Shown here piece by piece: positions 30,522 through 37,626 of a stretch of 64,000 nt of DNA. Positions within the stretch are counted from its first letter, which is position 1, and each line of letters starts with the position of its first letter. Under the pieces are notes generated by a model. That model searched no databases. It was not told the DNA's origin and saw only the letters and a list, made by a program, of their open reading frames with translations. Made by a program: the position numbers and the translations under genes. Source of the stretch: Veillonella sp. R32. Lineage in GTDB: Bacteria > Bacillota > Negativicutes > Veillonellales > Veillonellaceae. Location of the stretch: NCBI RefSeq assembly GCF_010093125.1, contig NZ_NMZQ01000003.1:1-64000 (forward strand). The letters run 5' to 3'.

Positions 30522-31850
30522 TTAAATATGGAATAAACCTAACATAGCGCCACAGGCCAAGGAAATCAAGGACATGATGAATAAACGAGGCGCACAGAAT
30601 TTTAATAAATCTTTGATTTCAATACCAGCCAAACCACAAGCTAAGAAAGTAGTAGCTGCATGAGGTGTTACAAGTACACCATAGTTTTTAGAAATCAACA
30701 TCGCCATAGCCATATCGTGTGGATTTACCCCAAAGCGTTCCCCTACACTAATAGCCAATGGTACTAAACCAAAGAAGTAAGAGTCAGTACCAAGTAACAT
30801 ACCAATTGGCACCCCAAGAATACCAAAGATAGTTTGAAGATGACCACCTAAGAAGTCTGGAACTAACGCAATAAGCATAGTGGCCATAGCATCCATCATT
30901 TTAGTACCGCTTAATACACCTAAGAATACACCGGATGCCAATAAAATCATAGGCATAGTTAAGGCTGTATCAGCATGCATTTTAATAGCTTTAGATTGCG
31001 CTTTAGCACCTGGGAAGTTAACAATCAAAGCAATAGCTAAACCAAACATAAAAGCCCCATAGAGCGGAATTTTAGTAAAGCAAAGTAAACCAATAACAAC
31101 TAAAGTTAAAATACCGTTGAACCATAATAATTTAGGGCGTTTCAACGCTTCCAAATCTTCAGACGTTACATTGCCATCAGTTGGTACTAAAGAGGAATCT
31201 AATAAAGCAGCTTCCCCAGTTGGATTTAAGCCAGCACCACGACGTTTTTCAACAATACCCATATAAGCGGCAAATACAAGTAAAATAACTAAGCCTACCC
31301 CTTGTAATGGGATTAATTCTTGCCATAAAGCATTTACATCCGCATTCAAAACAACGCCAGTACGAGCAACTGGACCACCCCATGGTACCAAGTTCATAAT
31401 ACTCATAGCGGCACCAATAATACATACTAAGGTTACGGGGCGCATATGAAGCTTCTTATAAATTGGAAGCATAGCTGGAATTGTAATCAAAAGCGTGGAT
31501 GCTAACGCACCATCCAAATGACCTACAACAGCAATCATAGCGGTAGCAATGGTAACTAACATAATATTATTGCCTGCTTTTTTAGCTAAATAGTTTACTA
31601 ATGGATCAAAAAGGCCTACATCACTCATTAACGAGAAATATACAATGGAGAATACAAATAATACCGCCGTAGACCAAGTCTTGGACACACCTGTTTGAAT
31701 AAATGTAAAAATATCAGATGGGCCAAAGCCAGCAATAACAGCTGCAATAATAGGTACGATAACAAAAATAGGTACAGGATTTGTCTTAGACTGAATTAAT
31801 GCCCAAACGATGATGACAATCATCAATAGGCCAAGAATACCTAATAACAT
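30522..31850 (-). CDS. CitMHS-family citrate/divalent cation:proton symporter
   Basis: Inner-membrane transporter that in characterised relatives imports citrate complexed with Mg2+ or Ca2+. The 442-aa product has about 12 membrane segments. It shows family-typical stretches: KTNPVPIFVIVPIIAAVIAG near residues 22-41, GHLDGALASTLLITIPAMLP near 110-129, and LVPWGGPVARTG near 152-163. ATG with AAGGAG 9 nt upstream. It lies after citF but is separated from it by a terminator, so it has its own promoter. Citrate as substrate is supported by the adjacent citrate lyase genes; related acids are possible. Confidence 0.88.
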   Translation of the reverse strand: MLLGILGLLMIVIIVWALIQSKTNPVPIFVIVPIIAAVIAGFGPSDIFTFIQTGVSKTWSTAVLFVFSIVYFSLMSDVGLFDPLVNYLAKKAGNNIMLVTIATAMIAVVGHLDGALASTLLITIPAMLPIYKKLHMRPVTLVCIIGAAMSIMNLVPWGGPVARTGVVLNADVNALWQELIPLQGVGLVILLVFAAYMGIVEKRRGAGLNPTGEAALLDSSLVPTDGNVTSEDLEALKRPKLLWFNGILTLVVIGLLCFTKIPLYGAFMFGLAIALIVNFPGAKAQSKAIKMHADTALTMPMILLASGVFLGVLSGTKMMDAMATMLIALVPDFLGGHLQTIFGILGVPIGMLLGTDSYFFGLVPLAISVGERFGVNPHDMAMAMLISKNYGVLVTPHAATTFLACGLAGIEIKDLLKFCAPRLFIMSLISLACGAMLGLFHI

Positions 31851-32048: not shown

Positions 32049-33602
32049 TTAATCTAATGGTTTACGTACAACGTCGATAATGGTACCATCACGATATTCA
32101 ACGATAGCCACTACATCTTCATCTTTTTCACTTACAGTAATACCTTCTGGTTTACCTACAAGATCAAAGGCTAATTTTTGCAATTCTTCAATTGTGTAAA
32201 TTGGTAAGTTAGAATCTTTGAAACGTTCAATTAAGTCAGTACGACGAGGATTAATAGCAATACCACGTTCTGTTACAATTACGTCAACAGATTCACCTGG
32301 CGTAATAACAGTTTGAACACTATCTAAAATCATTGGCAAACGGCCACGTACTAATGGACAAGTAATAACTGTACATTTAGCACCAGCAGCTGTATCACTA
32401 TGACCGCCAGAAGCACCCATAAGCACCCCATTGGAGTCAGTCATACAGTTAACATTGAAATTAGTATCAATTTCAGTAGCCCCAAGGAACACTACATCAA
32501 GATAGTTAGTCATGTTGTCAGTCCAAGGATCCGCATACATGGATGCGCTCATTTCAATGTGAGCTGGGTTTTTATGTAAAGAAGCAGCTGCTACCGTATC
32601 AAATGTTTGAGTATCATAAATAGCATTGATTAAACCGTCTTCTAACATACCTGCTAAGATACCAGTGGCACCACCAATACCAAAGCCTGCTTTAACACCC
32701 TGTTCTTTAAGTTTTTGACCAATAAATTTAGCCACAGTTAAAGGCGCTCCACCAGCACCAAGCTGGAAGCTGAAACCTTCTTTAATAATGCCTGCTTGAT
32801 CAAGGAATTCAGCAGCCATTTCAGCGATTTTAATCTGTACAGGGTTCTTAGTGAAACCAACGGCCCCAGAAGCAATGCCTTCTGGATCACCAATCGCTTC
32901 TACTTCAACGATGTAATCTACATCTGTTTGAGGTACGGAGTAAGGATATACATAGTCAACCAAGTTGTCAGTAATAGCCACTGTTTTATCAGCATAGTGG
33001 GAATCTACCATAGCATAGCCAAGCGCGCCACAAGCAGATTTACCTTGCATGCCTGTGAAATTACCACGGCGGTCACAAGTAGGCGCACCCATGAAGGCTA
33101 CGTCAATATGCACTTCACCAGCAATGATAGCACGAGCACGGCCACCATGAGAACGAATAACTACAGGGCGTTTTAATACGCCAGGATTCTTCGTTAAGAA
33201 TTTGCCTAGTGCATCACGAAGACCAGACGTTTCAATAGCCGTTACTGTACCGTCTTTAATCATATCGATTAAGAAGTCATGGCAAGGGCTAAGAGAACTG
33301 GAAGCAACAGTAATATCTTTAATACCTTTAGCTTGAATGCGTTCCATAACCATTTTCATAACATAGTCACCATTACGGAAATGATGGTGGAAAGAAACAG
33401 TCATACCATCTTTTAAGCCAGTTTTTTCAATGGCTTCATCGATGGAAGATAATAATTTATCAGCGCCACCTTGATTATATTTAGCAACAGGACGGCCTAC
33501 ACGACGTACTTTAGGCTCAATAGCGAACTCGCCTTGATATACTTCACGACCCGCAAGAGCTGGTAAATCCATTGGAATTTCGCGATTTGCTTTATTTAAC
33601 AT
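32049..33602 (-). CDS. citF: Citrate lyase alpha subunit (citrate:acyl-carrier transferase)
   Basis: Swaps the acetyl group of the carrier for citrate, forming citryl-carrier for the lyase subunit. The start at 33602 (MLNKANREIP) is chosen because the earlier ATG lies in the AAGGAG ribosome site. The 517-aa protein is of usual length and keeps the family motifs SFHHHFRNGD near residues 73-82, IRSHGGRARAI near 145-155, and a glycine-rich GVKAGFGIGGATGILAGML near 300. It overlaps the citDE stop by 11 bp, so it is translationally coupled. citC, citG and citX are not in the window. Confidence 0.93.
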   Translation of the reverse strand: MLNKANREIPMDLPALAGREVYQGEFAIEPKVRRVGRPVAKYNQGGADKLLSSIDEAIEKTGLKDGMTVSFHHHFRNGDYVMKMVMERIQAKGIKDITVASSSLSPCHDFLIDMIKDGTVTAIETSGLRDALGKFLTKNPGVLKRPVVIRSHGGRARAIIAGEVHIDVAFMGAPTCDRRGNFTGMQGKSACGALGYAMVDSHYADKTVAITDNLVDYVYPYSVPQTDVDYIVEVEAIGDPEGIASGAVGFTKNPVQIKIAEMAAEFLDQAGIIKEGFSFQLGAGGAPLTVAKFIGQKLKEQGVKAGFGIGGATGILAGMLEDGLINAIYDTQTFDTVAAASLHKNPAHIEMSASMYADPWTDNMTNYLDVVFLGATEIDTNFNVNCMTDSNGVLMGASGGHSDTAAGAKCTVITCPLVRGRLPMILDSVQTVITPGESVDVIVTERGIAINPRRTDLIERFKDSNLPIYTIEELQKLAFDLVGKPEGITVSEKDEDVVAIVEYRDGTIIDVVRKPLD

Positions 33603-34836
33603 TAATTTCAGCTCCTTCATCTACTTCTACTTTAATACCGGCTGCACGTGCTTTATCTACAATGCGTTGTGCACGAACTACGATAGGACCATCAATCATC
33701 TTACCATCAACAGCAATAACGCCTTTATTGTTTTTCAAAGCATCTGCATAGCTATTCAATACTTTAACGGAATGAGCAATTTCTTTTTCATCTGGTGTAA
33801 ATACTTTATGAGCCAATTTAATCTGGCTTGGATGGATACAAGATTTACCATCAAAGCCAAGTGCTTTAATGTATTGTACTTCTTCTACGAAACCATCTGG
33901 ATCTTTAACGTCGGAGAATACGGTATCTACGCAACGAATACCGGCTTCACGAGCAGCCAATAAGATGGACTGACGAGCAAAAGTCAATTCAACGGCTGGT
34001 TTAGATTTACCAGTACGAAGGTCAGCACGATAATCTTCAGCGCCAAGAGCGATACCTACTACGCGAGGACCATGGCAGATTTCACGCACATTGTAAAGAC
34101 CTTTAACGGATTCAATAGCTACGATAATATTAATGGTACCTTCTTCCCAACCATTCGCTTTTTCTACTTCTTCAATTTTACGAGCTACGATTTCAACTTC
34201 AGATACATCTTCAGTTTTAGGAATACGAATCAAGTTTGGTTTAGCTGGTACGATTACATCCAAGTCATCATAACCATATGGTGTCTGCGTTGGATGGTTA
34301 ATACGTACTACTGTTTCAGAGCGGAAAGTCATGCTTTTTAAAGCTTCCGCTGTCATCAAACGAGCTGTATCTTTTTCTGTTACAGGAATGGAATCTTCAA
34401 TATCAAACATCAAACTATCAGCACCGTGAATGTCTGCACTGTTGATCATTTTAGGTGTATTACCTGGCACAAACATCATGCTACGAGAAATACGAGCTTT
34501 AGCAGCTTCTGATAAAGGTAAGTTTTTAACTTCTACAGGACGAGTTTCGTCATGAGTAACAGCTGGTTTTGGTTCAGAACCACGTTCTAACGCGCCCAAT
34601 ACACGAGCTTTAATAGCATAATCCCAAGCGGCTTTATCGTCGGCAATAACTTTTACCCCATCATAACCAGCTTCTTTTACTGTCTTTACGATTAATTCTT
34701 CGATATGTTTACCATACTGACGTTTTACTTTTGAAGTTAACTCTACTTCAATACCAGCTGCGATTGGTTCTACGGTTACAAGACAATCTTGTTTTTCGTC
34801 AAAACCAGCTGTCGCTGCTTTTACTAATTTGTTCAT
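33592..34836 (-). CDS. citE: Fused citrate lyase acyl-carrier-like (CitD) and lyase (CitE) protein
   Basis: A 414-aa protein. Residues about 1-95 align with the citrate lyase gamma subunit CitD (TVEPIAAGIEVELTSKVKRQ, VIADDKAAWDYAIKARVLGAL), and residues about 115-414 form CitE (SRSMMFVPGNTPKMINSA, LMFDIEDSIPVTEKD, VVRINHPTQTPYGYDDL, GIALGAEDYRADL). Normally these are separate proteins of about 95 and 290 aa. The CitD motif GTLESSD, whose serine carries the prosthetic group, reads GFDEKQD here, so lysine replaces the modified serine. The CitE part keeps its metal and substrate motifs. It cleaves citryl-thioester to oxaloacetate and acetyl-thioester if it acts as CitE does. It precedes citF with an 11-bp overlap. 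Related activity, such as citramalate cleavage, is possible. Confidence 0.88.
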   Translation of the reverse strand: MNKLVKAATAGFDEKQDCLVTVEPIAAGIEVELTSKVKRQYGKHIEELIVKTVKEAGYDGVKVIADDKAAWDYAIKARVLGALERGSEPKPAVTHDETRPVEVKNLPLSEAAKARISRSMMFVPGNTPKMINSADIHGADSLMFDIEDSIPVTEKDTARLMTAEALKSMTFRSETVVRINHPTQTPYGYDDLDVIVPAKPNLIRIPKTEDVSEVEIVARKIEEVEKANGWEEGTINIIVAIESVKGLYNVREICHGPRVVGIALGAEDYRADLRTGKSKPAVELTFARQSILLAAREAGIRCVDTVFSDVKDPDGFVEEVQYIKALGFDGKSCIHPSQIKLAHKVFTPDEKEIAHSVKVLNSYADALKNNKGVIAVDGKMIDGPIVVRAQRIVDKARAAGIKVEVDEGAEINVK

Positions 34837-34963: not shown

Positions 34964-36394
34964 TTATTTAATGAGGCCAATAGCGGACCAGTAACCGTAA
35001 CCAACTGTCATCGTTAATACGAAACATACGATAGCTACTAAGCCACCAACAATCCACCAAGTCTTAACATCATTAAAGCCTTCACCAAAGATAATTGGCG
35101 CTGCGGCCCCGCCGTAGTGAGTTAAAGCACCACCATAAGAGTTAGTCGCTGCTAATACAAGTGCAAGCCCCATTGGATCAATACCTGCTACTTTACCAAC
35201 TGTTAAGAATACTGGTAACATAGCTACTACATAGGCACTACCAGAAGCGAACAAGTAACGTACTACTACGCTGATAAAGCCGATAATCACAAGCGCAATG
35301 AATGCGTTTTCACCGAAGTGAATATGGGTTTCCATGAATTTAGCTAACCATTCAAAGAATTTTACTTTGCTCAACGCACTAGACATACCAATGATACCGC
35401 CGAACCAAATGAACGTGTTCCAAGCACCATTACTTTTAAGTACATCATCCCATTTAATAACATTACATACGATAGATAAACACATCGCTGCTACCGCTAC
35501 AGCTGTCGCATTGATGGAGAATTTAATACCAAAACCTTGTTCTAAAATAGAAGGCATCGCCCAACCAAGTAACGCAAGGATGAAGATAGCAACCAAGATT
35601 TTTTCACTTAATTTCATTGGCCCTAAATCTTCAAGACCTTGTTTAGCAATCGTGTGATTGTCAATCTTAGTCAAAGTAGGACGTTCAAAAATGTAAGTAA
35701 CAAATGGTACTGCCAATAACATAACAAGACCTGGAATAACCATGGCTAACGCCCATACACCCCAGTTAAGATCAACACCTAAAATCTTATTCATGAAGTC
35801 AGCAGCCAATAAGTTTGGCGCCATAGCAGTGGCGAACATAAAGGATGTAACTTTAGTTACCATGTAAGTATTAGCACTTAAGTAAGCACCCGCTTTTTTA
35901 GCCGTTTCACCTGGTTCAGAACCAAGCGCACGAGCCGTCGCATTGATGATTGGGTAAACGATACCACCAGCACGAGCTGTATTGGATGGTGTTACTGGGG
36001 AGATGATAAAGTCTAAAATAGCGGTTACATAACCCAAACGTAACACAGTAGAACCAAACATCCCAATTAGATGATACGCAATACGGCGTCCAAGGCCCGT
36101 TTTTACAAAGGCAACAGACAAAGCAAACGCCGAGAATACCAACCACAAAGTGGAAGAAGCGTAACCAGATAATACGGCAGACGTATTATTCAAGAAAATA
36201 GAAGATGCTGCAATCGATACTAATAAGACTACGGGAGCACCCCAAGGTTTAATAACAAGGCCTACAATGGCGGTCAAATAGAACCCAAATAAACGCCACG
36301 CATTTACTTCAAGTCCTTCTGGCGGTGGTGTAAACCAAATGATTAACGGAATCAACGCCATAACTGCAATTTTAATTAATTTGCTGCTGTTCAT
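34964..36394 (-). CDS. DASS-family dicarboxylate/citrate transporter
   Basis: Anion:sodium symporter or exchanger family member, probably moving citrate, malate, succinate or 2-oxoglutarate across the inner membrane. The start at 36394 (MNSSKLIK) has AAGGAG 10 nt upstream; the longer frame passes through that site. The 476-aa protein has 12-14 membrane segments and the paired SNT-type motifs SPVTPSNTARAGGIVYPI near residue 130 and NSYGGALTHYGGAAAPIIF near 420. It lies upstream of citDE-citF in the same direction. Citrate/succinate antiport, as in CitT, would suit a fermenting cell; that is inference. Confidence 0.87.
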   Translation of the reverse strand: MNSSKLIKIAVMALIPLIIWFTPPPEGLEVNAWRLFGFYLTAIVGLVIKPWGAPVVLLVSIAASSIFLNNTSAVLSGYASSTLWLVFSAFALSVAFVKTGLGRRIAYHLIGMFGSTVLRLGYVTAILDFIISPVTPSNTARAGGIVYPIINATARALGSEPGETAKKAGAYLSANTYMVTKVTSFMFATAMAPNLLAADFMNKILGVDLNWGVWALAMVIPGLVMLLAVPFVTYIFERPTLTKIDNHTIAKQGLEDLGPMKLSEKILVAIFILALLGWAMPSILEQGFGIKFSINATAVAVAAMCLSIVCNVIKWDDVLKSNGAWNTFIWFGGIIGMSSALSKVKFFEWLAKFMETHIHFGENAFIALVIIGFISVVVRYLFASGSAYVVAMLPVFLTVGKVAGIDPMGLALVLAATNSYGGALTHYGGAAAPIIFGEGFNDVKTWWIVGGLVAIVCFVLTMTVGYGYWSAIGLIK

Positions 36395-36486
36395 TCTGTA
36401 AAAACTCCTTAATTCATACATATAACAAACTTAAAACACAACCTACAAGTTCGTGCAAGTTATGCTCTTGCTCAACCTGTAAGCTC

Positions 36487-36732: not shown

Positions 36733-37626
36733 CTAAAATTCAATATCCACGGGTGTGTAATCCTTATAATGTTCACACACATAGTCAATAAAGGTTTTAG
36801 CGGCAATTAGCTTAGTGCTGACTTCACTAAAATGCAATAAAGTACTACGCATAAATGGAGTTCCATCCTTGTGATAAATCGGTGCCACATGGATGCCCTC
36901 ATCTTTACAAGAACCTAGACCTAAATAAGGTAAAATAGCCCAGCCTAAGCCTTCCCGCACAAAGTGACGGCAAGTTACCATGGAGTCAAGCTCCATAGCC
37001 GGTTCTAAACTGGTAGGTAAGTTTTCACTGCGCCAGCTTTCTACAATGGACGAAATGGAGCCATCCGTACGATATTGAATCCAAGGCAAGGAGGCTAAAT
37101 CATCGATACTAACCTTATCTTTGTAGACCAGACAATAAGGCTCTTCAAAGAGTTTAATAGAATTCGTAGATTCTTTAAAATTACCACGAGTAATGGCAAT
37201 CATAACTTCGCCCCCATTAAACATCTTATTAACATGAGAACTATAACCTGATTTTACCTGCATATGAATATGAGGATATTTTTCAGTAAATAAACTCAAT
37301 AAATGCGGCAATTGATAGTCTGCAAAGTTAATGGACGAAGCAATTTTCAAAGTACCTTGAATCTCGCCGCTCATTTCACCAATGGATTGCTTTAAACTTT
37401 CCGTTTCTTCTAGCATACGCCGACAATAAGCATGAAATACTTCCCCTTGAGGCGTCAAGGTAATCCCTTCATTAGTACGTAATAACAAAGGACAGCCTAA
37501 ATCTTCTTCTAAATGGCGCAAGCGATAACTTAGCGCTGGTTGCGAGAGAAATAGCTTATCCGCTGCTTTGGTAATATTCCCTTCCGCCACAACAGTAACA
37601 AAGGTTTGCCACTCTTTTTCATCCAT
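36733..37626 (-). CDS. LysR-type transcriptional regulator (citrate cluster)
   Basis: A 297-aa LysR protein. The DNA-binding helix-turn-helix occupies residues 1-60 (WQTFVTVVAEGNITKAADKL, LSQPALSYRLRHLEEDLGCP). The effector domain covers about 90-290 (GTLKIASSINFADYQLPHLL onward). Its ATG is 12 bp after the BI-1 family gene stop, with a GGGGGCC-type weak ribosome site (AAGGGGGCCTTGTTATG). It is transcribed towards the citrate cluster and ends in a strong terminator. Together with the T-N11-A box in the DASS promoter, it is the probable regulator of citrate or dicarboxylate use. Confidence 0.9.
   Translation of the reverse strand: MDEKEWQTFVTVVAEGNITKAADKLFLSQPALSYRLRHLEEDLGCPLLLRTNEGITLTPQGEVFHAYCRRMLEETESLKQSIGEMSGEIQGTLKIASSINFADYQLPHLLSLFTEKYPHIHMQVKSGYSSHVNKMFNGGEVMIAITRGNFKESTNSIKLFEEPYCLVYKDKVSIDDLASLPWIQYRTDGSISSIVESWRSENLPTSLEPAMELDSMVTCRHFVREGLGWAILPYLGLGSCKDEGIHVAPIYHKDGTPFMRSTLLHFSEVSTKLIAAKTFIDYVCEHYKDYTPVDIEF

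Follow-up and report, generated by a model that had tools for sequence, protein, structure and literature searches.

Bacterial citrate lyase (EC 4.1.3.6; citCDEFXG in E. coli) is among the closest described relatives of the locus analyzed here, and the phosphoribosyl-dephospho-CoA carried by a serine of its acyl carrier, CitD, is treated as essential for the enzyme. Stand-alone CitE-like enzymes (malyl-CoA lyase, CLYBL, RipC and the citryl-CoA lyase Ccl) are also related, and those that have been characterized act on free acyl-CoA (PMC3832036). A third related system is biotin-independent malonate decarboxylase (MdcA/C/D/E), in which the serine of the carrier MdcC is loaded by the enzymes MdcB and MdcG, and which has no CitE-type C-C lyase.

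The locus resembles each of these systems in part. With canonical citrate lyase it shares a three-subunit gene order, homologous CitF and CitE, and a CitD domain whose profile score lies above the cutoff. However, the attachment serine (GTLES[S/G/N]D) is gone, the genome is devoid of citC, citX and citG, CitD is fused to CitE in the clade of the window, and CitE reads IHPxQ where the canonical protein reads INPRQ. With the stand-alone CitE-like enzymes it shares the CitE fold, the catalytic-type residues, the histidine in IHPxQ and, as we propose from sequence, the use of free acyl-CoA; unlike the set described here, those enzymes have not been described as parts of a citDEF operon that also supplies CitF and a CitD domain. 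The likeness to malonate decarboxylase concerns the predicted MdcC fold (5vit_C) and the architecture of acyl transferase plus carrier. Lastly, the locus resembles pseudo-acyl-carrier proteins in general, as a carrier domain is kept and its attachment residue is lost. No earlier description of a pseudo-acyl-carrier CitD or of a carrier-free variant was found in the open-licence literature, outside which most subscription papers lie.

The window, a stretch of 64,000 nucleotides from Veillonella sp. R32, carries the fused citDE gene, citF and their neighbors on the minus strand (Table 1). Residues 6-85 of the fusion match PF06857 (CitD/MdcC) with an E-value of 9.9e-20 in a profile search. The score on the TIGR01608 citD model (67.8 bits) exceeds the cutoff of 63.5, which explains why proteins with the lysine described below are annotated as 'citrate lyase acyl carrier protein'. 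For the CitE part, matches were obtained to PF03328 (residues 118-336) and to the TIGR01588 citE model (residues 115-401), with 339 bits on the latter compared with 167 on RipC. In the alignment columns of CitE, the catalytic-type (metal/catalytic) residues R178, E242, D268 and D382 are intact and invariant, and the catalytic residues are retained when the protein is aligned to malyl-CoA lyase; residues homologous to these four are named in PMC3832036. The start of citF overlaps the end of citDE by 29 bases. A LysR-type regulator also adjoins lysine citDEF sets in relatives. A match to the Rfam family Ysr283, a Yersinia antisense sRNA, scored 78.9 bits at 35702-35950 (+), on the strand opposite the DASS gene; it probably reflects conserved DASS coding sequence, not RNA.

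Table 1. Features of the citDEF locus, with positions in the window.
Feature	Position	Strand	Basis or remark
Fused CitD(Lys)-CitE protein	33592..34836	-	Uninterrupted ORF, 414 aa
CitD-like domain, putative pseudo-acyl-carrier, residues 1-90	34567..34836	-	PF06857; AF2; 5vit_C fold match
Lys15 codon at the prosthetic-group serine position	34792..34794	-	Alignment to CitD
CitE (citryl lyase) domain	33592..34494	-	TIGR01588/PF03328; R178, E242, D268, D382 invariant
His335 codon in CIHPSQ	33832..33834	-	Position occupied by Asn in most serine-type CitE
citF, alpha subunit (acyl transferase)	32049..33620	-	TIGR01584, 671.9 bits vs cutoff 501.45
CitMHS-family citrate:proton symporter, downstream	30522..31850	-	TIGR00784, 278 bits vs cutoff 259.7
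DASS-family anion symporter, upstream of citDE	34964..36421	-	TIGR00785, 427 bits
LysR-type regulator, upstream, adjoining the cluster	36733..37626	-	Profile search

A gapless alignment with E. coli CitD pairs AGTLESGD with AGFDEKQD, placing Lys15 at the serine position and bearing out the original prediction of a CitD-CitE fusion with lysine in place of the prosthetic-group serine. Because the lysine recurs in all 28 genomes of the family and in 23 related loci of named genomes, a sequencing error is excluded. The prediction had also noted that no citC, citG or citX lies nearby, and this holds for the entire genome (2.24 Mb, 99.9% complete). CitX and CitG gave no match anywhere in it, the E. 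coli control being positive, and a PF08218 profile search found no true citC: the sole weak match is CoaD, which scores 196 bits on the coaD model. This weak match is universal, and those outside the genome of the window were judged by size and score. The absence of CitX, CitG and CitC means that no recognized route to make or attach the prosthetic group is present. The genome does contain a second PF06857 protein, an unfused CitD on contig C19 with the motif GSENKGD, but this too has lysine, so that a serine CitD was not found by the PF06857 search of the whole genome. The search for another citD with its loading genes, suggested as a check on the prediction, thus failed to refute it. The citD of contig C19 heads a separate citD-citE-citF set (locus L003, 7757-10462) adjoined by a LysR gene and a DASS carrier. 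Genes for an RraA-like aldolase and an amidohydrolase, the DASS carrier and a transposase are close to that set. A near-identity search of plasmid records gave no match. A Si-type citrate synthase (PF00285) was not found in the Veillonella sp. R32 genome either, and cleavage of internally made citrate was discarded on this ground, Si-type enzymes alone having been searched.

The family sample (28 genomes of four genera, mostly Veillonella) provides a natural control. Lysine CitD is found in every genome, mostly unfused: citD stands apart from citE throughout three of the four genera and in a single member of the window's genus, and only the other members of that genus carry the fusion. Among named Veillonella records, the fusion was seen in V. 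ratti, V. seminalis, V. intestinalis and a fourth strain, and not in V. parvula, V. atypica, V. magna and others. Both the fusion and the lysine are real, but the tie between them suggested by the prediction does not hold, as in most relatives the lysine citD is a gene of its own. The fusion arose late, within one Veillonella subclade, and is unrelated to the loss of the serine; as an explanation of that loss it was rejected since unfused relatives carry the identical lysine. In every family locus read, citE and citF adjoin the lysine citD. CitX, CitG and true CitC were found in only two family genomes (G026 and G027), and these are the ones that carry an additional, canonical citD (GTLESSD) beside the lysine CitD. 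Each has a single cit cluster, with citD-citE-citF-citG on one strand and LysR-citC-citX on the other.

A wider survey covered 300 Negativicutes genomes, 120 of which contain a PF06857 protein and 77 CitX. Outside the family, lysine CitD was detected in G145, G146, G148, G294, G295, G065, G046 and G055. Lysine CitD occurs without a citrate-lyase-type serine CitD in 33 Negativicutes genomes, family included, and CitX is found in none of them. The lysine-only genomes outside the family also lack true CitC, and CitG appears among them in G055 alone, about 5.5 kb from a malonate decarboxylase ACP gene. Both kinds of CitD are present in G295, where CitX and CitC share a contig with the serine set. 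Serine CitDs of CitX-bearing genomes were read residue by residue in part of those genomes, and few serine sets occur in genomes that lack CitX. One of these, in G230, can be explained by the position of citD at a contig end; G047 and G048 are apparently real exceptions. Malonate-decarboxylase-type ACPs with the motif GVTGSGD were also observed in genomes without CitX (L105, L106, L108-L110, L112-L115, L120 and L123). The search for lysine-type CitD outside the Negativicutes comprised plasmid records and the E. coli chromosome and found none: the Fusobacterium, Azospirillum, Peptoclostridium and Enterococcus records, as well as the E. coli chromosome, all have serine.

When 47 CitD-CitE-CitF sets were aligned, CitD position 14 separated them perfectly, with lysine in 20/20 lysine-type and serine in 27/27 serine-type sets. 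The clearest other column lies in CitE, where histidine (I/VHPxQ) occupies the position in all 20 lysine sets and asparagine (INP[RK]Q) in 24 of the 27 serine sets. CitE of the window reads CIHPSQ, and IHPxQ is also found in five solved stand-alone CitE-like proteins. Serine-type CitE has asparagine at this position in Azospirillum, Enterococcus and E. coli, and serine in Fusobacterium and Peptoclostridium. The three serine sets with a His-type CitE are L138 (G048), L139 (G047) and L134 (G078). The CitD motifs of L138 and L139 are GTEESGD and GTEDSGD, respectively, and their genomes lack CitX and true CitC; possibly these two sets are a third carrier-free lineage that still holds the serine. 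L134 keeps the serine (GMLESCD) in an operon without accessory genes, its genome contains CitX, and it groups with the first lysine lineage. Such a set looks like an intermediate between the serine and lysine forms. Another locus of G047, L137, combines proline at the CitD serine position (GTMEPSD) with a His-type CitE. The two markers are thus imperfectly coupled, given that G047 and G048 keep the serine without CitX and that L134 pairs serine with histidine in a CitX-bearing genome. After correction for kinship the Lys-His coupling was not significant in a phylogenetic pair test with two or three evolutionary events, a result attributable to the small number of independent events.

The trees of CitE and of CitF divide the lysine sets into two lineages, one with the motif GF[DEN]EK[NQ]D (lineage 1) and the other with a looser G[ST]xxK[GS]D (lineage 2), and the best trees require at least two changes at the Ser/Lys site. 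A single lysine clade was rejected for CitF (AU p 0.001), although not when the serine row L134 was counted in (p 0.231); for CitE, the test did not reject a single lysine origin (AU p 0.139). The existence of two lineages suggests that the site has changed two or more times, and we consider a repeated origin of lysine CitD likely, albeit not proven. Purifying selection acts on the CitD domain, whose dN/dS between Veillonella species is about 0.04-0.17 at saturated dS. The original prediction had suggested that the domain might be kept for assembly only; an invariant lysine that has probably evolved repeatedly hints at a role beyond scaffolding.

The CitD domain, modeled alone, gave an AF2 model with a mean pLDDT of 95.9, in which Lys15 falls within the loop that links strands 8-10 and 18-24. 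When AlphaFold was applied to the whole fusion, with no more than five fused rows to draw on, confidence in the CitD part was low for that reason. Among solved structures, the best whole-length fold match to the domain is MdcC (5vit_C; TM 0.79/0.74, rmsd 2.2 Å), although several larger proteins with lower TM-scores outrank it by E-value. The domain is therefore predicted to retain the MdcC fold. MdcC Ser25 occupies the tip of a loop that joins two antiparallel strands, about 10 Å from the modeled ribose 2'-OH of CoA; furthermore, the malonate decarboxylase holoenzyme assembles with apo-MdcC, and MdcD-MdcE accepts free malonyl-CoA, though poorly (PMC5534430). A lysine at the site equivalent to Ser25 might come within reach of a phosphate group on free CoA.

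From the loss of the serine, the absence of the loading genes, the accompanying change in CitE and the conservation of these features, we infer that CitD-CitE and CitF probably form a citrate-lyase-type enzyme that has lost its covalent arm and uses free CoA thioesters, with a pseudo-acyl-carrier as one of its subunits. With lysine in place of serine and no loading genes, ordinary free CoA is the probable cosubstrate. The original prediction of a citrate-lyase-type enzyme without a covalent carrier is thus well supported, no intact citD with citX or citG having been found genome-wide, and its suggestion of free CoA thioesters gains indirect support from the histidine in CitE and from malonate decarboxylase biochemistry (PMC5534430). 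The lost arm would be 2'-(5''-phosphoribosyl)-3'-dephospho-CoA, replaced by CoA as a free cosubstrate. The partial reactions of citrate lyase are established, and the proposed steps are modeled on them. CitF would move the CoA of acetyl-CoA onto the entering acid, which is most likely citrate, with release of acetate and formation of citryl-CoA; CitE would then split citryl-CoA into oxaloacetate and acetyl-CoA, which would prime the next round. Because CitE would regenerate acetyl-CoA, the ligase CitC would not be needed. The CitD domain would keep its fold as a pseudo-acyl-carrier and probably hold the complex together, while its lysine, at the former tether point, may touch the phosphates of bound free CoA. 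One may go further and speculate that the lysine grips the 3'-phosphate or the diphosphate of free CoA, so that a swinging arm became a non-covalent clamp on more than one occasion, together with an Asn-to-His change in CitE; this is an idea that we regard with slightly more doubt than confidence.

The nature of the acid admits more than one explanation. The assignment of the locus to citrate lyase in the original prediction stands as far as the type of enzyme is concerned, while citrate as the substrate is uncertain in view of a review, one passage of which states that Veillonella does not metabolize citrate and is silent on cosubstrate testing (PMC8757872). A carrier-free enzyme of the kind proposed might therefore act on citramalate or another 2-hydroxy acid, and lineage 2 especially might belong to a different CoA-ester pathway. 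This alternative, which we consider rather unlikely, is consistent with the gene neighborhoods of the lineage-2 lysine operons (L131, L132 and L133), where an HMG-CoA-lyase-like protein, a family III CoA transferase and amidohydrolases are found alongside; these sets may serve another acid. Lineage-1 sets, however, are adjoined by CitMHS, CitS-like (2HCT) carriers and PEP carboxykinase, and CitF is a full citF equivalog. Lineage-1 sets other than that of the window also have as a neighbor a probable pyruvate carboxylase, judged by eye from its sequence, which together with PEP carboxykinase and the CitS-like carrier fits oxaloacetate as the product. The lineage-1 neighbors thus transport or use up citrate and oxaloacetate. 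The genes around L131-L133 might encode an as yet undescribed route for degrading a branched di- or tricarboxylic acid.

Other explanations concern the arm itself. Lipoyl and biotinyl domains have a lysine at a hairpin tip, and the CitD lysine, invariant, located at a loop tip and present in two lineages, might likewise be modified and bear a lipoyl or another acyl-accepting group, in which case the protein would still be a carrier. We find this highly improbable: the LplA/LipB family (PF21948) is present in 0/28 family genomes compared with 13/14 controls, and the absence of lipoate ligase makes a lipoyl-lysine carrier, which was discarded, very unlikely; biotin has no thiol, and the predicted fold is MdcC-like. 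It is also conceivable that the prosthetic group is still attached, through another residue or by unrecognized replacements of CitX and CitG, as non-homologous replacements are invisible to profile searches and G047 and G048 keep the serine without CitX. Very little weight can be given to this view, however, because no conserved serine substitutes for Ser14 in the loop, and CitX, CitG and CitC are missing together and return only with a serine CitD. Finally, the disappearance of both the active serine and the loading genes, along with the reported lack of citrate use (PMC8757872, in the passage mentioned above), would be expected of an inactive, decaying remnant of citrate lyase. Such an interpretation is scarcely credible for a lysine CitD that is universal in the family, with citE and citF adjoining in each locus read, low dN/dS and invariant catalytic-type residues; moreover, citrate lyase genes are regulated in V. 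dispar (PMC10100942).

Our best reading of these sequences is that they represent a two-marker, carrier-free variant of citrate lyase that is general in Veillonella and reaches well beyond the window. If this is true, a common human-associated genus has a carrier-free form of an enzyme whose covalent arm has been viewed as indispensable, and some relatives hold the serine and lysine forms together in one genome. Such a variant would offer a natural system to study the purpose of the covalent arm and its loss from a swinging-arm enzyme, and simple markers (Ser/Lys in CitD, Asn/His in CitE) would predict cofactor need.
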